From a virus: a stretch of DNA of 64,000 bases. The stretch spans positions 45,435-109,434 of the IMG/VR virus record IMGVR_UViG_3300030108_004017. One strand, written 5' to 3'. The notes under the pieces were generated by a model that had not been told where the DNA came from, ran no database searches, and worked only from the letters and a program-made list of their open reading frames with translations. Positions 39,611 through 51,012 of the stretch are shown one piece after another (position 1 is the first letter of the stretch; each line of letters starts with the position of its first letter). Made by a program: the position numbers and the translations under genes.

Positions 39611-42133
39611 TCAAAAAAATCTTTCAATGGTATCTTTTTTTAGTGTTGGTTCATCCCAATTCATAGCCTGATAAAACATCATAATCTTTTTATATAACGC
39701 CTGGTCGTAGATTTTCTTATGGTGTATATTCTCTTTTATGAATTTGATTATCTCAGGTGGATCCTCATAACCTTTGTAGGCCAACACATCCATACCTAAA
39801 TTATTTTCTTTTAGATACACCCACTTTATCTTACTACCATTCTTGATGAATTCATATTTCTTATCTTGTTTGTAATACTTCAGTAAGTCATTGTGATTTA
39901 TAGCAGCCTTGACATGCACTGGTGCACCTTTTTTGAAATCAGTAAACATACCATCAGATGGTGATATGTATTTTGATATATTCTTTACCCCAACTGGTGA
40001 TGAGATTCTATCAAAGTCCATCAACTCCATTGAATTTCTAAAGTTTACAATTCTCTCATCTATCTTTTCTTTTGGTACATCCGCCAAAATATCTTCCAAC
40101 ACACTCGATAGTAATTCTTTCATCGCTATTGCAAACGAACTTCTAACGGTATCCAAACCTTTGACATGCACTTTGTTTACCTTTACCCCAGCATCATTGA
40201 TAATCTTCATACCATATCTTTTCTTGGTAATGAATAATCCACTCTTTGCAATAACCTCTTGTTTTATCTCGTAATGGTGTTCATCTATACGATTGAATCT
40301 TTTGGCAAAATAATTATATGAATTGTTCAAGAATGTTTGTACCTCTGATGCAATATCAAGAATCTTTTTTGACATCATCACATCAGATAATTTTTCATTC
40401 GGAAATCTCTTCTCTACCAATGGAACTGCAGAATAAAATACTGAATCAGTATCAATGTAAATACAATAGTCTTTGTCATCACCCAACTCTCTGTTGTAAA
40501 AGTAGTTACCCATTTTCTTAGTGAATTTGATTAGTGATTGACCTGTCAATGTTGTTGATTCTGCATTATCTAAGTCATAGAATCTAAATACAGGTAAACC
40601 CAATACACCATATAATGAGTTTAGAATAATCTTCTGTAGGTATTGTCTTCTATCAAAATACTGATGTTGTTCATCGTTACCCTCTTCAGCAAACTTCTTA
40701 GCCAACTTTCTGAACTCTACCCTTTCATTGAACCACTTAGTCAATAGTGATGGAATCAAACCTTTCTTATCAGTTCTATACAATACTCCACAAGAAGATA
40801 TACTGACTTTATTATCATTGAAGTATTGTTCGAGTTGGTCATTAGTTACTTTACCTTGTTCCTTACCTTTCATCTCAATAGTATAAGTCTTTTTCAAATC
40901 TTTTTGTAAATACTCTTCAGGATCCCAACCAATAACCTTACCAAGTTTAGTTTCAGGTGAAATATTCAATGAACGAATTACACTCGGATACATACTCGTA
41001 ATATCCAAATCATATACCCAACTATGTTTACCAGATTGTGGTTCTTGTACATAAGCACCTGCGAACTTATCACCACTCAATTGTTTTGGTCTTGGTGGTT
41101 TATCTGGTGCAACCATTCCAACCTTTTTCAGATAGACTAAAATCGCACCCTCAAGATATCGTGAACTCATAAATACATCTTCATAAGGTACATGCCCAAG
41201 ATGAGCCACACCACGAGCAATATCAATAAAATCTAATTTATCATCGAGTTTCTTCACAATCCTAACATCGTGTATGTTATATTCTACAAATTTCTCTAAG
41301 TCATTTTCATATAAATCGTTCAATGTACCATCATATTCTATTTTATTCGTACCAACCTCAACCTCACCAATATGGTCTAATCTGTAACTTGATTGCATCG
41401 TAAATCTAAAGTTCTTGTAGAGTGCGAGATAGTCTAAAATGTTCACACCTGCAATTGTATATCTTTCTCTGAATGTAGACCAATTTACTTCTCTAATTGG
41501 TGATAGTAAATTGGCCACATCAGCACCAACCACTTGAACTGACCGATTATAGAGAAAAGGAATATCGAAAAACTCTATATTCCAGCCAGTAATTATTGTT
41601 GGTTGGATTTCCATATATTTTAGGTAAAATCTTGTCAATAATTGAAACTCTGTTTTGAATGTTTCAATCGTTTGTCCATCTTCTTCTTTTACTCTGTTAC
41701 CTACATCATCAGATGGTAGTTCAAATTTATTTTCAGGATCGAGTACAAAAGCAGTATAGTGGTCGGTAATAGAATCATAAATCGCAATAGAAGTTATCTG
41801 TTCTTTTGGATTCTGAACATCAGGAAATCCATCTACGATTTCACACTCGATATCCATAATCATTACTCTGTGACCATCAGATACTTCATCACTATCTGTA
41901 TATTGGTCTACTAAAAATCTAACTACGGGTTGTACATCAGACTCAAACAGACCTTTTTCTTTAGGATCCCAATCGTGTATCTTCTTTAGTCTATCACCAT
42001 ATAGTGAAACATATTGACCACCAGGTGATTTAGTATACGCATATTTTTTGAATGGTATGACTTGGTAACCAGCCTTATCATCCCAAAGATGTATTTTCTT
42101 TTTGAAATGGTCGTAATGAATTGCCTGATACAT
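39611..42133 (-). CDS. Family B DNA polymerase, gp43-like
   Basis: 840 aa, slightly shorter than T4 gp43 (898). Proofreading exonuclease motifs: MIMDIECEIV (D94, E96), GWNIEFFDIPFLYN, and YNIHDVRIVKKLD. Polymerase motifs: DLDITSMYPSVIRSLNI (motif A), KIILNSLYGVLGLP (B) and YIDTDSVFYS (C). All catalytic acids are present. It ends in KKDTIERFF, a probable C-terminal clamp-binding peptide. It overlaps no neighbour and is followed by gp45. Confidence 0.96.
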   Translation of the reverse strand: MYQAIHYDHFKKKIHLWDDKAGYQVIPFKKYAYTKSPGGQYVSLYGDRLKKIHDWDPKEKGLFESDVQPVVRFLVDQYTDSDEVSDGHRVMIMDIECEIVDGFPDVQNPKEQITSIAIYDSITDHYTAFVLDPENKFELPSDDVGNRVKEEDGQTIETFKTEFQLLTRFYLKYMEIQPTIITGWNIEFFDIPFLYNRSVQVVGADVANLLSPIREVNWSTFRERYTIAGVNILDYLALYKNFRFTMQSSYRLDHIGEVEVGTNKIEYDGTLNDLYENDLEKFVEYNIHDVRIVKKLDDKLDFIDIARGVAHLGHVPYEDVFMSSRYLEGAILVYLKKVGMVAPDKPPRPKQLSGDKFAGAYVQEPQSGKHSWVYDLDITSMYPSVIRSLNISPETKLGKVIGWDPEEYLQKDLKKTYTIEMKGKEQGKVTNDQLEQYFNDNKVSISSCGVLYRTDKKGLIPSLLTKWFNERVEFRKLAKKFAEEGNDEQHQYFDRRQYLQKIILNSLYGVLGLPVFRFYDLDNAESTTLTGQSLIKFTKKMGNYFYNRELGDDKDYCIYIDTDSVFYSAVPLVEKRFPNEKLSDVMMSKKILDIASEVQTFLNNSYNYFAKRFNRIDEHHYEIKQEVIAKSGLFITKKRYGMKIINDAGVKVNKVHVKGLDTVRSSFAIAMKELLSSVLEDILADVPKEKIDERIVNFRNSMELMDFDRISSPVGVKNISKYISPSDGMFTDFKKGAPVHVKAAINHNDLLKYYKQDKKYEFIKNGSKIKWVYLKENNLGMDVLAYKGYEDPPEIIKFIKENIHHKKIYDQALYKKIMMFYQAMNWDEPTLKKDTIERFF

Positions 42134-42898
42134 TTATATAAACCTATTTACACCTGTTAGTTCGTTTATTCTTTCCATTGATTTTGTAAAATATTCCTCA
42201 TCTAACTCACAACCAATAAATTCTCTGTTGGTATTTATGGATGCAATTGCAGTACTACCACTACCACTAAAACAATCCAAAACAACATCACCTTGATTTG
42301 TGTGAGCCTTGATAATTCTTTCTAATAACTCAAGTGGTTTCTGAGTTGGATGCCATCCAGCATATTCTTTTGATGTGGTATGATTATTTTTTGGCCAAAC
42401 ATCCGTTGGTATTTTACCAAGTGGATTTAGTTCTTTACCTTTTCTAACACTCTTTTTCAAAATATATGGTATTCTAACATCATCTTTGTTGAACATAAAT
42501 TCTTTACCTTTAGAATACATCAATAAATCTTCGTGTTTTCTGGCAAAGTTTTTCTTTGTTCTACCACCCCAATCATACGACCATATTATCCAACTCTGAT
42601 AATAAATATCATCAAAAGAATTGAGAACATCTAATTTATATTTCAAGAATGTATCTGTTTTGGTAGTACCCCAAACATACATACATCTATTTGGTTTCAA
42701 TACTCTAACACATTCCGCTGTCCATAACTTACACCAATCTAAATAATCTTGTTCCGTGTCCCAAGCCGAGTCCCAACCCTTACCACCATCATATCCAATA
42801 TAGTATGGTGGGTCTGTTAGAACCAAATCAACAGAATTATCATCAAGACCTCTTAGTAAGTCTAAACAATCCTCATTTACTATAGCATAACTTTTCAT
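42134..42898 (-). CDS. DNA methyltransferase of a restriction-modification pair
   Basis: 254 aa, beta-class order: catalytic LTDPPYYIGYDGG (29-32 DPPY) first, SAM motif DCFSGSGSTAIA near 208-219 last, with WHPTQKPLELLERIIKAHT between. These enzymes methylate N6 of adenine or N4 of cytosine. It overlaps by four bases the end of the endonuclease-like gene. It is unrelated to the three SPPY paralogues beyond the fold. Confidence 0.87.
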   Translation of the reverse strand: MKSYAIVNEDCLDLLRGLDDNSVDLVLTDPPYYIGYDGGKGWDSAWDTEQDYLDWCKLWTAECVRVLKPNRCMYVWGTTKTDTFLKYKLDVLNSFDDIYYQSWIIWSYDWGGRTKKNFARKHEDLLMYSKGKEFMFNKDDVRIPYILKKSVRKGKELNPLGKIPTDVWPKNNHTTSKEYAGWHPTQKPLELLERIIKAHTNQGDVVLDCFSGSGSTAIASINTNREFIGCELDEEYFTKSMERINELTGVNRFI

Positions 42899-43491
42899 TC
42901 ATTCTCCTCGAACCAATCATTGTCTTTGTAAGCAATTTCATAATTAGAAACATCGTCTAAGTTCACAACAACACTATTTAGGTTTGTTGTCGCCCCATCT
43001 TTACGATTGTTGTTGTTTTCAGTAAGTGTACTGATAACATAATCAGTAGTTGGTTTGATAATCAAAACACATCTCTCTTTCCAAAACACACCAAAATAGT
43101 GATTATGTTTAGAATAAGCATCAATTGCATCTTGTGTATATGCCCCATTGTAAACACCAGGAACTTTGAGTGCTGAAAATCTCAAACCTGTATTATGGTT
43201 TCTAACTTGACGAGTAAGGTTACGAACCTCTTTGTCATTGATAGACTTACTCTTATATTCTGCAGTTTGTCCATTAGCCTCATAAGCATCTGCACCATAT
43301 TTATCACTACCTTTACCAGCAGAAATCTTATCAAAAGCCTTATGACCTAATTTGTCAGCGATAACAAACTCTCTCCATTGAGTTTTGTCTGTAATTTTAT
43401 GAACACCATCCTTCTCACCTTTTAGATATAAAGCGTGAGCCAAGTCTTCATAAGAAAAATTGTTTATTAGATTGTTAGTTGTTGTCTTCAT
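42895..43491 (-). CDS. Restriction endonuclease-like protein
   Basis: 198 aa. The segment KYGADAYEANGQTAEYKSKS has the PD-(D/E)XK layout (D68, then E78-Y-K80). The adjacent IADKLGHKAFDKISAGKGSD resembles the region before the active site in several type II enzymes. It overlaps the DPPY methyltransferase gene by ATGA, so the two look like a type II restriction-modification pair. Start at 43491; a longer frame would run through the promoter at 43524-43553. Specific cutting site cannot be read from sequence. Confidence 0.7.
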   Translation of the reverse strand: MKTTTNNLINNFSYEDLAHALYLKGEKDGVHKITDKTQWREFVIADKLGHKAFDKISAGKGSDKYGADAYEANGQTAEYKSKSINDKEVRNLTRQVRNHNTGLRFSALKVPGVYNGAYTQDAIDAYSKHNHYFGVFWKERCVLIIKPTTDYVISTLTENNNNRKDGATTNLNSVVVNLDDVSNYEIAYKDNDWFEENE

Positions 43492-43523
43492 TTTGTTTGT
43501 TTTTCCTTTATTATTCATAGTAT

Positions 43524-43553
43524 AATATACACAACTTTTACTATATGTGTCAA
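43524..43553 (-). promoter_or_regulatory. Early promoter of the restriction-modification pair
   Basis: TTGACA, 18 bp, TATATT on the minus strand, overlapping the stop codon of a 39-aa zinc-finger gene. It means the endonuclease gene is read first and the methylase second. Confidence 0.75.
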
Positions 43554-43669
43554 GCATTATTTTCTTTTTTTATAACACAAAACAAACAGAGTTCAGGATA
43601 AAAAATCATTATCCCATCTAACTCTGTTTTACATTGTTTACATTTACGATTCGTCTTCGTCTTCTTCAT
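43550..43669 (-). CDS. 39-aa CxxC zinc-finger protein
   Basis: Starts MKKTKTNRKCKQCKTELDG and ends CLFCVIKKENNA: two CxxC pairs 18 residues apart, a compact zinc knuckle. It begins inside the upstream 39-aa gene, in another frame, with a weak ribosome-binding site, so translation would be coupled. The pattern of cysteines makes chance less likely. Confidence 0.5.
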   Translation of the reverse strand: MKKTKTNRKCKQCKTELDGIMIFYPELCLFCVIKKENNA

Positions 43670-43775: not shown

Positions 43776-44132
43776 TTATTTTATGTTTAGTTTTGAAAAA
43801 TATTCATCTTTAGTGATACCAAGTCTACCATTGGTTTTTCTACCCCAAGTAAACTCACTCTTTAGTTTCTTGTTAGCCAAGACATTTACAAAAAAATCAT
43901 TGTCTGGATTCTCACAAATAAACTCATAGTTTTTCAAGAATCTATCCACACCATTCATATCACTACCTTTTGTGAAATACATTCTTTCGTATGGTAAATT
44001 TACAGTACTCATAGTCAATTTGAAGTTCTTGAAATACTTATTGTATTCAACTCCCACATGCTGGATAGTACCACTTCTTTTATTTACCCAATAAGTGTAA
44101 GTACCTTCTTTTAGATGTTTTCTTGTATTCAT
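43776..44132 (-). CDS. Small basic early protein, unknown
   Basis: 118 aa. MNTRKHLKEGTYTYWVNKRS, then VNLPYERMYFTKGSDMNGVD and a basic end WGRKTNGRLGITKDEYFSKL. Related in style to the 101-472 product (both have tryptophan-glycine and basic segments) but I cannot show homology. Start at 44132 after AAGGAAAAAACA; promoter at 44159-44187. Confidence 0.6.
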   Translation of the reverse strand: MNTRKHLKEGTYTYWVNKRSGTIQHVGVEYNKYFKNFKLTMSTVNLPYERMYFTKGSDMNGVDRFLKNYEFICENPDNDFFVNVLANKKLKSEFTWGRKTNGRLGITKDEYFSKLNIK

Positions 44133-44158
44133 TGTTTTTTCCTTATTTATCATACCAT

Positions 44159-44187
44159 AAGTTACAAAGAAAAAATGACAAATACAA
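44159..44187 (-). promoter_or_regulatory. Variant early promoter
   Basis: TTGTAT, 17 bp, TAACTT on the minus strand, in GTGCTTGTATTTGTC and followed by ATGGTATGATAAATA. It departs from consensus at both boxes but keeps the family's flanking bases. Confidence 0.5.
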
Positions 44188-44218
44188 GCACTTTTTACAA
44201 CTTTTTTTATTTTTTTTT

Positions 44219-44719
44219 TCAATCCATTAGAAATATTTCTTGTGAATCTATTAGTGTATTTTCAATACTCCAATACAATTTCATCCAACTACCACTACCC
44301 TTATTTTGCATTACTCTTGTAGGTCTTAGTGTATTAAAAAAATATCCTAAACTATCTACTTCAGAGTATCTGTCTGTAGTCCATCTTAGTGTGTCTACAT
44401 CTACATCCATAGTATCTCTGTTTCCAAAGTTATCATACCATATTGCTTTGTTTCTTCTGTTTGGTAATAATCTGTAATGTCCACTTGAATCATCTTCATC
44501 CCAATACATATTACTCCACCAATGTACAACCATTCTTTCAAGAGGTATACTATCTTCTGATTCTAAGTGACCCCAAATTGGAGCAGGTGTTATCCATAAC
44601 CAATCAAGTATTTCAATTCTATCTACTCGTAACATCGTCACGATAATATTAGATTTAGTCGGGTCTTCTACTCTATCATCACAACAAAATAATAATAACA
44701 AAAATAATAACTTTTTCAA
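44219..44719 (-). CDS. Predicted lipoprotein next to TonB-dependent receptor
   Basis: 166 aa. Signal peptide KKLLFLLLLFCCDDRVEDPT: a Leu-rich core ends in two cysteines (12 and 13), so lipidation is likely although Phe at -1 is unusual. The mature part is acidic and Trp-rich (LDWLWITPAPIWGHLESEDS, MVVHWWSNMYWDEDD). The start codon is TTG, preceded by AAAGGTACAAACA. Directly downstream of the receptor gene, separated by a strong hairpin, so it may be a surface partner of the receptor or an exclusion lipoprotein. Not recognised. Confidence 0.6.
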   Translation of the reverse strand: MKKLLFLLLLFCCDDRVEDPTKSNIIVTMLRVDRIEILDWLWITPAPIWGHLESEDSIPLERMVVHWWSNMYWDEDDSSGHYRLLPNRRNKAIWYDNFGNRDTMDVDVDTLRWTTDRYSEVDSLGYFFNTLRPTRVMQNKGSGSWMKLYWSIENTLIDSQEIFLMD

Positions 44720-44737: not shown

Positions 44738-44764
44738 AATTGGGGGGAAAAATTCCCCCCAATT
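44738..44764 (-). terminator. G6/C6 hairpin after the receptor gene
   Basis: A 12-bp perfect inverted repeat (44738-44749 with 44753-44764) with a 3-nt loop lies 8 bp past the receptor stop. It lacks a following U tract, so it could end most transcripts or stabilise the receptor mRNA. It is similar in design to the hairpin after the TonB-domain gene. Confidence 0.7.
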
Positions 44765-44771
44765 TATTACT

Positions 44772-47525
44772 TTAGAAATTGACAGATAGTCCTAAGTTGA
44801 AACTTCTTGGTGTTCCAAGAAATACTTCGGCATTATGAGCTAAGTGAAGTTTATCACCATACCCATTGTATTTACTATTGTCTACTGCATCTTGAATGTA
44901 TACATTATCAAGAGCATTGAATAAATGACCGTGAATAGTCATATCAAGACCTGCAATTTCAGGTAATTTATAAGATAGATGTAAGTCTAACTTACCATAA
45001 GATGGAGTTTTCCATACTTGTTCTCTATCTGCATCACCTTCAACCTCACGAGAATCAGGACTCCAATCAGCATAGTGATTGTCGTACCATCTATAAAGAC
45101 CTTGTACACTCAAACCTTTAATTGGTTTTACTGTAAGTCCACCAACATAAGATGTTTGTGGCATATCACCAACTTTTAGATTAGCGAGAGCATACTCATA
45201 CTCTTCTGATGTCTGTCCGATAATCTCATTATTTTCATTGTATTCCATCTTTGTGTAATCACCTTTAGCATCTCCGTCAAAGTACCAATCTCCGATACTA
45301 ACAGCGACATCTAAGTCTACCATTTCGTGTAGAGCAACTTTAGACTCTATCTCGAAACCACTATGACTTTGGTCTACACCAGTTAGATAAATGATGTCTG
45401 TGTCACCTGAATCACCTTGTCCTGTTGTTACAGATTTTGTAAGGTTTCTATCTTTCCATTGAGTGTTATAATAACTACCCTTGATAGCAACTTTATCACT
45501 TCTGTATTCTCCACCGATTTCATTAGATATGAATTTCTCATTATCTGGATTTGTAGATACATTTCCATCATAGTCAATCACATTATCTAAGATTGGTGGT
45601 TTTTGAACATACCCTAAATTAGCAAATGCTGATAATCTGTCATCAAGATTATATCTAGCACCACCCTTTACTTGAAAGGTTGTGATAGATGGAGCTTCAA
45701 CAAAATTATCAATTTTGTTTCCATCTTCATCTACATTTAGAGCAAAATGGTCTTCGTAAGTATATCCAATAGTGGATACACCACCCATACCATAAAGGTT
45801 TAGTTTCTCACCAGTATAACTACCTTGTAAGAAAGCACCAAACCAATCAACAGTTGTTTCGTTGTGATAGGCGATAATATCACCTAAACGAACTACTTTA
45901 CCATCAGGTGCGTTATCATCGGCGAAATTTACATAGTAGTCTCCACCTAATAAATCACGAACCTCACGGGCGTGTTCAATACCAGCAGTTCTCCAATCGA
46001 TACCAACTTGAACTTCAAGTTCGTCTGATACATCATAGTTCAATTTAGAAATCAAACCATATGTGTTCTGACGATTGATTGAGTTACGAAGAATACCTGT
46101 TGAACGATTTTCAACATCAGACCAAGCAGAATCTACATTAGATGAGTTCTGTTCAATCTCAGCATTCCAATCCCACATCCAAGGTGAACTTGCGTACCAA
46201 GGTTCTCCTTCAACTGCAGGTTTTCTACTGACACTTCCATAAGTACCAGTACCACCACCTGAACCACCACTCCAATATAATACTGAAGATAATCTCATAT
46301 CATCATTTATATCATAGAAATGGTTTAGATTTACAAGTGGTTTATGAAAGAAGTTTTCTCTTTCATTCAACAGATTTGGATTGTACCTGTCTGTAGTTCT
46401 CGCACCATACATATACCAATATTGTTGGCCTTTGTATGATGGGTCTACAGGTGCCCAATTCTGATTGAAGAACCTACCAGCTTCAGTTTCAAACTTCTCT
46501 CCCTCAACATAAGCTGAATCATTGTATCCATCGATACTTCCAGCCAACTCTTGAGAATAAGTAGCTATGTTCTGTTTGTATAGGTTCTGTCCGTGTCTTT
46601 GTGGAGCACCGATTGCATATAACTCGAATCTCTGTTTATCTGATACAGCATATGATGTACCTAAATAATAAGCCCAAGCATCTGTCCAAGTACCGTCAAT
46701 CAAACCGTCACCAGTTTTACGAACAATTGTACCACTAATTGCCAACTTATCATTTATTAGACCTGAGTTATAATTCAAGGTAGATTTTAGAAATCCACCC
46801 TCACCGACTTCTTGTTTGAACTTCCCACCTTTTTCGTGAGCAGCTGGGTCGGTGATAATGTTCATCGTTCCACCAATTGATGGTGTAGCAAGATTCACGG
46901 CTGATAGACCTCGTTGCATCTGAATTGAGGAAGTAGCATCTCCTACTCCATCCCAATTAGACCAATAAACCCATCCGTTCTCCATATCGTTTTGGGGAAC
47001 TCCGTTTATCATTACTGCGACATTTCGTTGGTTGAATCCACGAACATTAATACGGGCATCTCCCGCACCTCCACCTTGTTGAGTTGCATATACACTTGGT
47101 GTTGTGTTTAGAATCATTGGAATATCTTGAGAACCTAATCTCACTTCCATTTCTTCTTTACTAACCGTAGTATAAGCAACAGGTGTAGTCTCATCTGCAC
47201 GAGAAGCAAGAACTTCAAGTGCTGTGAGAGCAACCACATCAGTTTCTAAGTCAAAACTGACACTTCCAACTATATCACCAATCTCAACTGATTGAGTTTT
47301 GGCAACATAACCGATGTATGAAGCAGTAATGTCAAAAGTACCAGATCCAGTTTCGATGACGAATTTTCCACTTTCGTCTGTTACTCCACCGAGTTCTGTA
47401 CCCTCAACGATTACATTCGCTCCAACAAGTGGTTTTTCTCCATCCCCAACAAAACCAGTAACGGCTTGTCCATAAACAAGTCCTACTGATATTGCAAGAA
47501 TAGAGATTAGATTACGATAGTTCAT
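44772..47525 (-). CDS. TonB-dependent outer-membrane receptor
   Basis: 917 aa. Order: signal peptide 1-19 (ending GLVYG), carboxypeptidase-regulatory-like domain 21-105 (PLVGANVIVEGTELGGVTDE), a TonB-box-like ETTPVAYTTV near 112-121, plug 122-240 with RINVRGFNQRNVAVMINGVP and SIGGTMNIITD, then a beta barrel to a C-terminal Phe (FNLGLSVNF), the BAM insertion signal. All parts needed for an active importer are present. The layout matches Bacteroidota/Marinimicrobia receptors. Start at 47525 after AGGAG. It lies downstream of the B12-dependent RNR. Substrate unknown; corrinoid is a hypothesis from context, and surface masking against rival phages is another. Confidence 0.93.
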   Translation of the reverse strand: MNYRNLISILAISVGLVYGQAVTGFVGDGEKPLVGANVIVEGTELGGVTDESGKFVIETGSGTFDITASYIGYVAKTQSVEIGDIVGSVSFDLETDVVALTALEVLASRADETTPVAYTTVSKEEMEVRLGSQDIPMILNTTPSVYATQQGGGAGDARINVRGFNQRNVAVMINGVPQNDMENGWVYWSNWDGVGDATSSIQMQRGLSAVNLATPSIGGTMNIITDPAAHEKGGKFKQEVGEGGFLKSTLNYNSGLINDKLAISGTIVRKTGDGLIDGTWTDAWAYYLGTSYAVSDKQRFELYAIGAPQRHGQNLYKQNIATYSQELAGSIDGYNDSAYVEGEKFETEAGRFFNQNWAPVDPSYKGQQYWYMYGARTTDRYNPNLLNERENFFHKPLVNLNHFYDINDDMRLSSVLYWSGGSGGGTGTYGSVSRKPAVEGEPWYASSPWMWDWNAEIEQNSSNVDSAWSDVENRSTGILRNSINRQNTYGLISKLNYDVSDELEVQVGIDWRTAGIEHAREVRDLLGGDYYVNFADDNAPDGKVVRLGDIIAYHNETTVDWFGAFLQGSYTGEKLNLYGMGGVSTIGYTYEDHFALNVDEDGNKIDNFVEAPSITTFQVKGGARYNLDDRLSAFANLGYVQKPPILDNVIDYDGNVSTNPDNEKFISNEIGGEYRSDKVAIKGSYYNTQWKDRNLTKSVTTGQGDSGDTDIIYLTGVDQSHSGFEIESKVALHEMVDLDVAVSIGDWYFDGDAKGDYTKMEYNENNEIIGQTSEEYEYALANLKVGDMPQTSYVGGLTVKPIKGLSVQGLYRWYDNHYADWSPDSREVEGDADREQVWKTPSYGKLDLHLSYKLPEIAGLDMTIHGHLFNALDNVYIQDAVDNSKYNGYGDKLHLAHNAEVFLGTPRSFNLGLSVNF

Positions 47526-47605
47526 AGTAATCACTCCTATTGTTGTTTTGAAATTGACACATTTTTTTACAGGTGTGTCGTCTGCCTGTCCGCTGTTTTG
47601 TAAGT
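47526..47605 (-). promoter_or_regulatory. Structured leader of the receptor gene
   Basis: Between RNR and receptor, the RNA can form GACACA / TGTGTC (6 bp, 12-nt loop) or an alternative ACAGG / CCTGT stem that uses the loop of the first. Two overlapping stems just before a start codon suggest a switchable leader. No known riboswitch consensus fits in 80 nt. Confidence 0.35.
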
Positions 47606-49615
47606 CTAATTTGCATAATCTTGGTCATCATTATCACCAGTGATTGGAATGATTTCACAACTATCGTTGTTACAAAATTTATCTACTTCTGCCTCTTCAT
47701 TCTTTATCACACCAAATGATAATTTACCAAGTTTTTTGACTTCTTTACCATAAGTCTTTTCATCAATTGCCTCATATGGCATTTGAGGATAAGCCCCATA
47801 ATCGTGTCTTGGTAATAAACTAATACCCTTTAGGTGATACTGATAATAATTCAAACACGGAGCAATTTGGTCTGTCTCCGTTTCTGGATTGAATGTAACC
47901 GTACAACTTACTTGGTTGTCTGCCCAATGTCGTTGAAGAAAAGCGGCTAAACTGAATTGTTCCCAAATCGAAAGTTCAGCCGCTGTTCTAATCCCCTCAC
48001 CGACATCTACTGGTACTTCAACAACCATTGTTGTGTCTTCTGAACCAAATGCTGGTTCTACTTTGTAACCTGCTTTTTTCATAGGTTCTAATAGTTCCGA
48101 ATGTTTTGAAACTCTTATTCTCCTAATGTAAAAACGACTCTCAGGATAATGTAGTCCTGGAGTCGCTCCTGCTAATAATGAAACTGTTCCTGATGGTTTG
48201 ACCGATGTGGTCTTGATAGATCGTGGAACTGCCATCCAATCTGAATATTGTTTATCCCATTGTTGGATAACATCAAATCCACCATTCAACCATTCTTTCA
48301 GTTCATCTAAACCTCTATTTGTTATAAACTGAGCAACACCACTTACACTACAACCGATTCTCCTATTTCTCAACATAACTCGATTTGTATCACTCCAATG
48401 AGTTCTACCAAGTGTTACTGTTTTTGCATACAAGTATGCATATTTTAGTGTTCTCGCATAATCCTCAAAATCATCGTGATTTTCAGGAAATGTTTCTACC
48501 AAACAACACAATTCGTATGATTCTAATGATTGTTCCAAACAAGGATTACCACCCATTACTCTATGGTCTTTATTGTCTCCACCATTTTTCATACGAGAGT
48601 ATTGTCTCATATTTTCTAACCAAGCAAATCCTGGTTCTCCATTGTCTGCAATTCTTTTTGCAGCTTCTGTATAATCCATACCCAATTCTGCAAATATGGA
48701 GTTATTACTTGTCCATCCATATTGTTCTCTATGTGGATTTACTTTATAATTTTTCAAATCTAAATATTCTTCTGAATGTGGGTCTCCAAATACAATCTCA
48801 GCCGTTCTTCTAACATTACCAGCCACTACACATTTTCCTATAAGATTCATAATATCAACAATTGTAGTGATTGAGATTGGTTCTCCACTATTCTTTTCAA
48901 GAACTTTTCTGATGTCTTCGTGTACTTCTTTTAGTGGTTCTGGTCCTGAACTAACTCCACCAAAACCTTTTATTGGTACACCAGCTGGTCTTATTATTGA
49001 GTAGTCAAACTCCATTGGTGCCTGTCCGTGAAAGTAACTTTCTAATAGTAACTTTAGTGACTCAACCCAACCCTCACGAGTATCAGGTATTTGAAATGTC
49101 TGAACATCTCTATCCTTGTTTATACCTTTGACTACTATTTCTCCAGCACCTTTTGTATCGAACCCAACACCAACACCTAACATACTCGCATCCATAAGGA
49201 AACAAAAAGGTTTAGCATAGTCTTCTTTTATTGTTTTTGTTGATACAAAGGCACAATTATTTAGGGCGGCATATAGTCCTTTTTCTTCTGTGATTGGTGT
49301 TCCCATTGCCCACAAACCACGACCTGGCGGTAAGAACTTCATATTGAAAATACGGTCATACATATCTTGTGCTGACCTCTGTGCTTGCCAGGGATTCCAC
49401 CCTAATTGATGTGATTCAATCCAATTCATTTGCATGTTGTAAGTTCCCTCTACAACTCGTTGTACTGTTTCCCACCATCTTTCGTTTTTGCCATTGTCCT
49501 TGATTCTTGAGTAGGTTCTCATATAAACCAACTCACCTAATCCATTAAAACCAAAAGGAGCTTTTTTCCTCTTGTACTTATTTATAAAATTATCTGATAA
49601 CTGAAATTTACTCAT
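47606..49615 (-). CDS. nrdJ: Adenosylcobalamin-dependent ribonucleotide reductase (class II, monomeric)
   Basis: 669 aa, close in length to the monomeric Lactobacillus-type enzyme. NCAFVSTKTI holds a redox Cys, and GGNPCLEQSLESYELCCLVE near 357-374 has the thiyl-radical Cys and the C-L-E site. KTTSVKPSGTVSLLAGATPG binds phosphate. CNNDSCEI near the C-terminus is the swinging cysteine pair. It reduces ribonucleotides without oxygen or an iron small subunit and needs adenosylcobalamin, so phage DNA synthesis depends on the host's B12 supply. Start is set by GGGAG eight bases upstream. Confidence 0.93.
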   Translation of the reverse strand: MSKFQLSDNFINKYKRKKAPFGFNGLGELVYMRTYSRIKDNGKNERWWETVQRVVEGTYNMQMNWIESHQLGWNPWQAQRSAQDMYDRIFNMKFLPPGRGLWAMGTPITEEKGLYAALNNCAFVSTKTIKEDYAKPFCFLMDASMLGVGVGFDTKGAGEIVVKGINKDRDVQTFQIPDTREGWVESLKLLLESYFHGQAPMEFDYSIIRPAGVPIKGFGGVSSGPEPLKEVHEDIRKVLEKNSGEPISITTIVDIMNLIGKCVVAGNVRRTAEIVFGDPHSEEYLDLKNYKVNPHREQYGWTSNNSIFAELGMDYTEAAKRIADNGEPGFAWLENMRQYSRMKNGGDNKDHRVMGGNPCLEQSLESYELCCLVETFPENHDDFEDYARTLKYAYLYAKTVTLGRTHWSDTNRVMLRNRRIGCSVSGVAQFITNRGLDELKEWLNGGFDVIQQWDKQYSDWMAVPRSIKTTSVKPSGTVSLLAGATPGLHYPESRFYIRRIRVSKHSELLEPMKKAGYKVEPAFGSEDTTMVVEVPVDVGEGIRTAAELSIWEQFSLAAFLQRHWADNQVSCTVTFNPETETDQIAPCLNYYQYHLKGISLLPRHDYGAYPQMPYEAIDEKTYGKEVKKLGKLSFGVIKNEEAEVDKFCNNDSCEIIPITGDNDDQDYAN

Positions 49616-49665: not shown

Positions 49666-51012
49666 TCAACTGAGATTGTCGAATCGATTTTTTGCCATTT
49701 TCCTCAAATATTCTTCTGAGTTATTCATCTTTTCACTCGCAATCTGACCTTGTTTGGTATTACTATCATTTACCATAATTTTACCAATATCAGTATTCAT
49801 ATCAGTTGGATATGTGACACCATCCACACCAAATCTATTTTTTATAATATGAACTCTTGCAAGATTAGCAACTTTATCTTCTACTTTTCTACTAATCGAC
49901 ATAACAAAATCTGCAGTCATTACTTTACTATAGTCTTCACTAACTTTATCCGCACCAATTACCTCTTCCTCTAAAGAACTACGATTTGCCTGAGATGCAG
50001 TCCATACAGGAACATCAAACTCACCAGCCATACCTCTAAGATGTTCATAAGTCTCACCCAAATTCAATCTTTTCTCTCTGTAATTTGATATGGGTTTCAG
50101 TATATCTGCATAATCAACAACAATAACATCTGGTTTGAACTCTATCAACTCTAATTGTTTTAGATGAGATGATATTGTCTGAACCGATGCAGTTCTTGTA
50201 GGGTAATACTTTATCATCAGATTACCTTGTATGTCAAATAACTTTGATTGTACATCTTCCTTATAATACTTCAATTGTTGAGTATTGATACCTGAAATAA
50301 TAGTATCGTATCTCAAACCAACATAAGCCTGATTCAACTCAAGTGTATAGTGTACAACTTTCATACCTTTCTTTATTGCATCCGCACCAACAGTTTGTAA
50401 AAACCAAGTCTTACCAATACCAGCTGGTGCAACCATAACACCAAGTTCACCACCACCTAATCCACCATCCATTATATCATTTATTACTGGCCAAGGTGTT
50501 GGTGTGGTCTTTCTAGCCGATGTTTCAAGTCTTTCCTCAAAACCACTTATATAATCGTGTCCTAAATCTCTTGTAGTTCCAGCTCTCATTGCCGTATCTA
50601 CTACCATTTTTATACCATCATAATCTTTATTTTCTAACAAATCAACTGATTCTAATATTGCCTTTTTTAGTTTTTGATTTTTACAAAAATCTAATATTTC
50701 ATCCTTTACATAATCTAAATCATCAGACTCTCTATGAGTCCAAGCCGATTTCAAAGCCTCAACTACAGCAACTTGAAGAACATCATTCTTTAGTTTCTTC
50801 AATTCTACTTTGAGTGCATCAAGTGATGGTGGAGTCTTATACTCCATAAAATATTTTTCGATTGTTTTCACAATCCATTTGTTTGCATCTGATTGAAAAT
50901 AATCTACTTCTATGATGTCGATAATAGTAGATATAAATACCTTGTCTGTCAATAATGACGATAGTATTTTAGTTTGAAAAGTTGGTCCATAATCGTTTAG
51001 ACTATCTGCCAT
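49666..51012 (-). CDS. Replicative helicase, DnaB/gp41-like
   Basis: 448 aa. Helical N-domain, then a RecA-like core: Walker A VAPAGIGKTWFLQTV (about 194-208), Walker B PDVIVVDYADIL, and SQANRSSLEEEVIGADKVSE in the later motif region. It unwinds DNA 5-prime to 3-prime as a hexamer and works with gp43. The upstream small basic gene ends four bases before this ATG. Confidence 0.92.
   Translation of the reverse strand: MADSLNDYGPTFQTKILSSLLTDKVFISTIIDIIEVDYFQSDANKWIVKTIEKYFMEYKTPPSLDALKVELKKLKNDVLQVAVVEALKSAWTHRESDDLDYVKDEILDFCKNQKLKKAILESVDLLENKDYDGIKMVVDTAMRAGTTRDLGHDYISGFEERLETSARKTTPTPWPVINDIMDGGLGGGELGVMVAPAGIGKTWFLQTVGADAIKKGMKVVHYTLELNQAYVGLRYDTIISGINTQQLKYYKEDVQSKLFDIQGNLMIKYYPTRTASVQTISSHLKQLELIEFKPDVIVVDYADILKPISNYREKRLNLGETYEHLRGMAGEFDVPVWTASQANRSSLEEEVIGADKVSEDYSKVMTADFVMSISRKVEDKVANLARVHIIKNRFGVDGVTYPTDMNTDIGKIMVNDSNTKQGQIASEKMNNSEEYLRKMAKNRFDNLS

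Follow-up and report, generated by a model that had tools for sequence, protein, structure and literature searches.

Why would a T4-like marine phage carry, as cargo, a TonB-dependent receptor (TBDR), a kind of protein known as a phage target? The gene in question encodes 917 amino acids and lies at positions 44772..47525, on the minus strand, of a 64,000-nucleotide stretch (the window) that covers positions 45,435 to 109,434 of the 109,434-bp IMG/VR virus record IMGVR_UViG_3300030108_004017; all window features given below are on the same strand. On the evidence presented here, we consider it somewhat more probable than otherwise that the gene encodes a working transporter that came from Marinimicrobia, is passed between phage backbones along with a class II ribonucleotide reductase (RNR) and would feed phage DNA synthesis.

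The receptor gene starts with an ATG at 47525 and stops at 44772 (917 codons). It is preceded by the Shine-Dalgarno sequence AGGAG (47534..47538), which is overlapped by a GTG at 47534. The protein shows a signal peptide at the N-terminus, an N-terminal CarbopepD_reg_2 domain (residues 24-101, 47223..47456; Pfam 6e-14), a TonB-box region conserved in phage and cell (residues ~101-122, EVLASRADETTPVAYT, 47160..47225), a Plug domain (residues 112-220, 46866..47192; PF07715, 7e-14, above the cut-off) and a beta barrel (residues 233-917, 44775..46829) that ends in a C-terminal Phe, nearly invariant in the phage and cell alignment. The segment EVLASRA..TPVAYT ahead of the plug is conserved in this alignment and is the putative TonB box. 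An AlphaFold model, with 58 phage and cellular sequences as input, has a mean predicted local distance difference test (pLDDT) score of 68 and a predicted template modelling (pTM) score of 0.65, and 22 barrel strands were counted from its DSSP string. The barrel is modelled with fair to moderate confidence, and the plug with low confidence despite being the best-conserved part. The plug domain and a 22-strand barrel with a C-terminal aromatic residue place the protein among the TBDRs. According to Foldseek against PDB, the top matches of the model are TonB-dependent receptors (Fiu, PqqU/YncD, FhuA, FecA and OprC; E-values to 3e-25), mostly siderophore receptors plus PqqU, a ranking that, as far as the model goes, does not indicate the substrate; the SusC family model gave no match to the receptor in a profile search. 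An initial annotation of this DNA had described a complete TBDR with signal peptide, regulatory domain, plug and Phe-ended barrel, and had suggested a structural comparison; the open reading frame, Pfam, alignment, model and Foldseek results agree with that description, and its TonB box appears as a conserved region before the plug, alike in phage and cell. That annotation had named no strand for the gene.

The same annotation had placed the gene inside a T4-type replication region and had regarded it as phage cargo, and both statements hold. In the window the receptor is accompanied by PolB, a DnaB-like helicase, an exonuclease, UvsX, a clamp loader and, directly upstream, an adenosylcobalamin-dependent class II RNR of the monomeric RTPR type (47606..49615; PF17975, PF21995, phrog_367). 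A scan of IMG/VR for relatives of the receptor returned 330 stretches, of which the best 80, with 75-99% identity, were kept. RNR is found directly upstream of the receptor in 70 of 82 phage loci, and six further loci are truncated at the end of their contig; PolB comes immediately after the receptor in 35 of these loci and behind inserts elsewhere. The contigs L082 (NZWA01000089.1) and L127 (PBHZ01000014.1), filed under a Flavobacteriales and a Euryarchaeota metagenome-assembled genome (MAG) respectively, are phage contigs according to their synteny. The closest PolB of an isolate, from Microcystis phage Mel-JY01, is only 45% identical.

In a phylogeny of TBDR sequences, 55 from phages and 47 from cells, the phage receptors form one clade (SH-like approximate likelihood ratio test, SH-aLRT, 99) nested in a Marinimicrobia/Fidelibacterota family, with an SH-aLRT of 98 for the join of this clade with one cellular group. 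Apparently, a T4-like marine phage lineage took the gene from a Marinimicrobia (SAR406) cell, once; to our knowledge, there is no cultured phage of SAR406. Of 149 Marinimicrobia genomes, 84 contain the cellular homologue (E<=1e-100), in most cases as a single copy. It is about 55-68% identical to the phage receptor over the full length, with a nearly identical plug, and stands alone beside housekeeping genes, without RNR or the pseudoknot leader described below. The sole cellular sequence inside the phage clade (L083) comes from a short contig, assigned to the MAG of a Marinimicrobia with a small genome, that contains two TBDR copies in tandem, the first of which falls in the phage clade yet lacks the pseudoknot leader; it may represent the donor lineage, a phage-to-host transfer or a tree artefact.

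Presence of the receptor between RNR and PolB is polymorphic. Among 105 distinct phages with this interval, collected by scans with PolB, RNR and DnaB alignments, the receptor is present in 80 and absent in 25, in which the RNR stop and the PolB start are mostly 60-190 bp apart; about 10 changes of state are needed on the PolB tree. In L211 and L288, the leader and the first ~17 receptor codons remain before the deletion, so the gene was lost in place. L286 and L295 were recognised by the same signature, and the remnant in all four phages retains the pseudoknot leader, the Shine-Dalgarno sequence and ~17 codons. Absence of the gene from close relatives had been named in the initial annotation as a sign against it; some relatives do lack it, as a polymorphism with an empty site and not as an artefact. 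In the receptor-minus phage L162, the RNR-PolB spacer contains a candidate tRNA gene (ggggctgtagttcagttggga...).

Pairwise identities of the backbone genes, calculated on contigs that are related and unevenly sampled, correlate with each other (rho mostly 0.5-0.8). Identity of the receptor shows no correlation with that of PolB (r -0.02) or DnaB (r 0.00; Mantel p 0.55 and 0.45, respectively), whereas with RNR it gives a Mantel r of 0.41 (p 0.001; 0.38 given PolB), without a gradient along RNR. Therefore, RNR and receptor have a history that the adjoining polymerase does not share, and diverged phage backbones appear to exchange the receptor together with the class II RNR. The motifs NPCLE...CC and NCAFVST and the C-terminal Cys pair are invariant in the alignment of the phage RNR and contain the catalytic cysteines and glutamate of RTPR. 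Since no close copy of the phage-type RNR was found in the 149 Marinimicrobia genomes, it is not a host gene. The RNRs of Marinimicrobia themselves are of the class II NrdJ_Z type in 59 of 61 genomes, with a class I small subunit in one of the 61, and thus the deoxynucleoside triphosphate (dNTP) supply of the host is also B12-dependent.

Ratios of nonsynonymous to synonymous substitution rates (dN/dS), calculated by the Nei-Gojobori method on MAFFT alignments, show purifying selection on the phage receptor, with medians of 0.146 for TBDR, 0.096 for RNR and 0.126 for PolB. Within the receptor, using regions that are approximate because they derive from the medium-confidence model topology, dN/dS is 0.06 in the plug, 0.11 in the strands, 0.145 in the extracellular loops and 0.20 in the periplasmic turns, and the signal peptide and CarbopepD domain are the fastest-evolving part (0.35). 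Mean identity within phages is 0.76 in the extracellular loops and 0.79 in the strands; between phage and cellular receptors, the plug reaches an identity of 0.92. This conservation agrees with a transporter in which ligand and TonB gating are retained, and not with a surface pressed to diversify, and the import function is probably intact, given the plug ratio and the constrained extracellular loops. Of the three functions put forward in the initial annotation, nutrient import fits best with the plug, the TonB-box region and the conserved loops; masking of the receptor, or a decoy, is less likely, as the loops are not diversifying.

The sequence between RNR and the receptor, GCGGACAGGCAGNNGACACACCUGUNNAAAAAUGUGUC (~40 nt), is predicted to form an H-type pseudoknot RNA leader (47556..47589; covariance model match of 65 bits). 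In helix P1, 47589-47585 (ACAGG) pairs with 47573-47569 (CCUGU), and in P2, 47579-47574 (GACACA) pairs with 47561-47556 (UGUGUC); loop L1 is CAGAC, L2 has 0 nt and L3 is A-rich. Across 63 distinct leaders, 97.5% of the cells are paired, with compensatory changes at six of 11 pairs and in both of the interlocked helices, as in a regulatory H-type pseudoknot. Covariation is 0.242, compared with 0.111±0.009 in shuffled alignments (0/500 reached it) and at most 0.087 when the pairing is slid. Changes of paired state on the receptor tree number 2, 4, 3, 4, 13, and 9 at the six variable pairs, part of the 13 being G-U steps. A finder tuned to the consensus matched 168 of 173 leaders of phage receptors and one of 53 cellular ones. 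In a pattern scan of IMG/VR, all 64 readable elements among the matches listed precede a TBDR, and among 19 long phage records, 14 contain a single element together with a single Plug domain and the other five lack both; the four deletion scars mentioned above are the receptor-minus loci that retain the element. No convincing copy was found in 245 Marinimicrobia genomes, where seven weak matches, in or among unrelated coding sequence, were attributed to chance. Rfam 15 gave no match for the leader at E<=10, and the families that it listed, all eukaryotic and unrelated, scored far below the threshold. P2 lies a median of 29 nt from the ATG (range 24-39), and in L018, where a glutamine synthetase gene separates RNR from TBDR, the pseudoknot stays with TBDR. 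From this fixed spacing, the element belongs to the start of the receptor gene and not to the end of RNR. The minimum-free-energy fold of one leader was uninformative (z 0.5), as expected of a pseudoknot, and a generic pseudoknot finder proved unspecific (positive for ~5-30% of other phage leaders and for 3% of shuffles), so the case for the pseudoknot rests on covariation and consensus. Furthermore, many phages (L053, L057, L071, L074, L180, L199 and L214) have the recurrent motif TTCACATAC just upstream of the pseudoknot, at a distance of a few bases; it is a possible promoter or processing site.

Directly after the receptor stop there is an intrinsic-terminator-like hairpin (ATTGGGGGGAA/TTCCCCCCAAT, 44739..44763), with a weak T run in this copy. 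Such a hairpin follows the receptor in 72 of 80 phages and the RNR in one of the 25 receptor-minus phages. With the leader tied to the receptor start and the hairpin after the receptor, the unit is RNR, pseudoknot, TBDR and terminator, followed by PolB. The receptor is accordingly a host-derived gene within a phage genome, with phage genes on both sides, variable presence at one site and its own terminator, the marks of an auxiliary metabolic gene or moron. The initial annotation had overlooked that the gene comes from Marinimicrobia, varies in presence and is co-inherited with the class II RNR, and it mentioned neither the pseudoknot leader nor the terminator.

We infer from this arrangement that the receptor would be made during infection, probably off the RNR transcript, and that the pseudoknot would adjust its translation independently of that of RNR. 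The leader would exert this translational control through a metabolite or a protein, or it may act through RNA stability alone. The receptor would then reach the outer membrane through the Sec and BAM systems of the host and draw on TonB-ExbBD of the cell to take up a nutrient whose scarcity holds back phage DNA synthesis. Rather speculatively, and with doubt prevailing, the leader could belong to a new class of riboswitch (or of switch operated by a protein) peculiar to these phages, which would respond to nutrient or nucleotide status and regulate an outer-membrane importer encoded by the phage in the service of its own B12-dependent RNR; if true, this would be a virus-carried, self-regulated system of vitamin acquisition.

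Other explanations were weighed against this one. That the virus record is an assembly chimera or contaminated with bacterial DNA is suggested by the receptor being a single-gene island of host-like sequence, and by nothing further that we found. The initial annotation had named a chimera as the outcome that would overturn it; instead, the junctions of the receptor recur at 99-100% in contigs of other metagenomes (L002, L003, L159 and L160), the same flanks are present in dozens of distinct, diverged T4-like marine phages from many metagenomes, where the receptor stands beside phage genes, and both the pseudoknot leader and the receptor clade are phage-specific. These independent contigs refute the chimera, whose probability we regard as negligible. 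The leader might be no regulatory RNA but an operator in the DNA, or a site of some other kind, since DNA inverted repeats can covary as well and the generic finder also responds to a fair share of other AT-rich phage leaders. Against this stand the features of an H-type pseudoknot (two interlocked helices, a zero-length L2, an A-rich L3 and loops that do not vary), the near-complete pairing with compensatory changes in both helices and a spacing fixed to the ATG and not to the RNR stop, even across the inserted gene of L018; we regard an operator as quite improbable. TBDRs are common phage receptors, and the gene could serve superinfection exclusion or receptor replacement, a phage variant of the host receptor lowering the adsorption of rivals, or of the phage's own progeny on debris. 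In this role the adjacent small lipoprotein could help, as Llp acts against FhuA in T5. The lipoprotein-like gene that follows the receptor in the window and nine other loci, the polysaccharide-remodelling cluster of the window and the patchy presence of the receptor agree with exclusion; on the other side, the extracellular loops are conserved, the plug and TonB-box region, which a decoy does not require, are nearly unchanged, and the lipoprotein-like gene occurs in a minority of receptor-carrying phages. We regard exclusion as unlikely.

For the reading that we prefer, in which the receptor imports a nutrient for phage DNA synthesis, import of some nutrient is likely, and the best single guess at the substrate, albeit a tentative one, is cobalamin for use by the phage RNR. 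The dUTPase and glutamine synthetase cargo at the same site points to DNA-synthesis supply. Several observations weigh against parts of this reading. The host assignment to Marinimicrobia rests mainly on the receptor phylogeny, and the correlation between receptor and RNR could come from a common host history or from linkage, although PolB is as near to the receptor as RNR is and shows no correlation. As for B12, phages without the receptor keep the same RNR, and BtuB is absent from the 50 best PDB matches of the model. Exactly one cobalamin riboswitch was found in 14 of 16 genomes of the host phylum; where its surroundings were inspected, it stands before another TBDR, of 681-688 amino acids, or before a DUF5074-like lipoprotein; this other TBDR is at most 25% identical to the phage receptor, in the N-terminal part only. 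The ten cellular homologues scanned have no cobalamin or other known riboswitch nearby. Control of the cellular homologue by a cobalamin riboswitch was accordingly set aside, the host riboswitch belonging to another receptor, and neither such a riboswitch, in phage or host homologue, nor closeness to a riboswitch-controlled receptor, as expected of a BtuB, was found; hence cobalamin is graded well below import as such. A different substrate that supports replication (an iron complex, nucleosides or nucleic-acid fragments, a nitrogen compound or another vitamin) is a serious possibility, if somewhat short of an even chance. It agrees with a host homologue outside B12 control and with fold matches mostly to siderophore receptors and PqqU, although the fold does not predict the substrate and a B12-dependent RNR is the consistent phage partner. 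Some host homologues lie near an S1/P1 nuclease, a nucleotide pyrophosphatase/phosphodiesterase, a deoxynucleoside kinase or SRAP, but such neighbours are confined to certain lineages and for the most part do not share an operon with the receptor. Nucleic-acid scavenging was consequently rejected as the main link and kept as a rival only. In the Marinimicrobia loci L145-L158 and L378-L382, the single cobalamin riboswitch controls a TBDR and/or a DUF5074-like, BtuG-like surface lipoprotein.

The insertion site is flanked on the left by the DnaB-like replicative helicase (49666..51012; Pfam, PHROG) and on the right by the T4-type DNA polymerase B (39611..42133; Pfam, PHROG, locus comparison), the conserved flank. 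Between receptor and PolB the window contains the small lipoprotein-like gene (44219..44719; 166 amino acids, a lipobox then acidic residues), an accessory open reading frame matching phrog_35306 (43776..44222), another to which Pfam and PHROG searches assigned no function (42895..43557), and a DNA methyltransferase (42134..42898; Pfam) as accessory cargo. The lipoprotein-like gene has no Pfam or PHROG match, SusD included in the Pfam search. It is downstream of the receptor in the window and in L002, L003, L011, L012, L017, L018, L019, L025, and L164, and seems to travel with it, because it is 91% identical in L011, where the backbone is ~52% identical. Other cargo at the RNR-PolB site belongs to nucleotide and nitrogen metabolism (dUTPase, glutamine synthetase). 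Glutamine synthetase is found with or without the receptor, showing both Pfam domains in L007 (7337-8311) and as relatives of 325-351 amino acids in L018 (6561-7544), L176 (7955-8938), L191 (5380-6432) and L232 (5066-6055). An open reading frame of 483-504 amino acids without a Pfam match recurs between receptor or leader and PolB (L005:4425-5873, L024:3963-5474 and L211:7550-8998). The polysaccharide-remodelling cluster (9663-30375) encodes GT2 and other glycosyltransferases, aminotransferases (one of DegT type) and two epimerase/GDP-mannose-dehydratase-like proteins, relevant to surface change in infection.

A large group of uncultured ocean phages thus keeps as cargo an apparently working TBDR, on which purifying selection is strong, beside a dNTP-supplying enzyme. 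If nutrient import is true, infection would alter what the cell takes up from the sea, reaching beyond inner metabolism to import across the outer membrane. The pseudoknot is a small, cloneable handle, and any ligand that it senses could hint at the substrate of the receptor.

Compact leader pseudoknots with an A-rich third loop are known from preQ1-I and other small H-type pseudoknot riboswitches. The phage leader resembles the preQ1-I type in compactness and in the A-rich third loop, but has no Rfam match, a Shine-Dalgarno sequence outside the pseudoknot and a different loop consensus. BtuB has the same fold as the phage receptor and would suit the RNR partner, but differs in riboswitch control, closeness and structural rank, as stated above. 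The stand-alone TBDR family of Marinimicrobia is the direct homologue, differing in its housekeeping neighbours and in lacking RNR and pseudoknot leader. The B12-dependent RTPR of virioplankton is the same enzyme class in marine phages (PMC10547690, PMC12918982), in papers that make no mention of TonB receptors, BtuB or Marinimicrobia. The one clear precedent found is the SusC-like TBDR encoded by marine megaphage Mar_Mega_1 and by LR745206, likewise read as an auxiliary metabolic gene (PMC9723777). Only residues 93-292 of our receptor match LR745206, at 28%, and the BFVD entry 'TonB-dependent receptor SusC [uncultured marine phage]' shares 12% identity with it. The accessible part of that source describes no RNR-pseudoknot-TBDR-terminator cassette and no spread of one for Mar_Mega_1 (PMC9723777), and our search of the open-access literature, with supplements and subscription papers outside it, did not find the RNR-pseudoknot-TBDR arrangement. 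Phage-encoded TBDRs as such are already known, from the megaphage, while the receptor cassette with its pseudoknot leader appears to be new.
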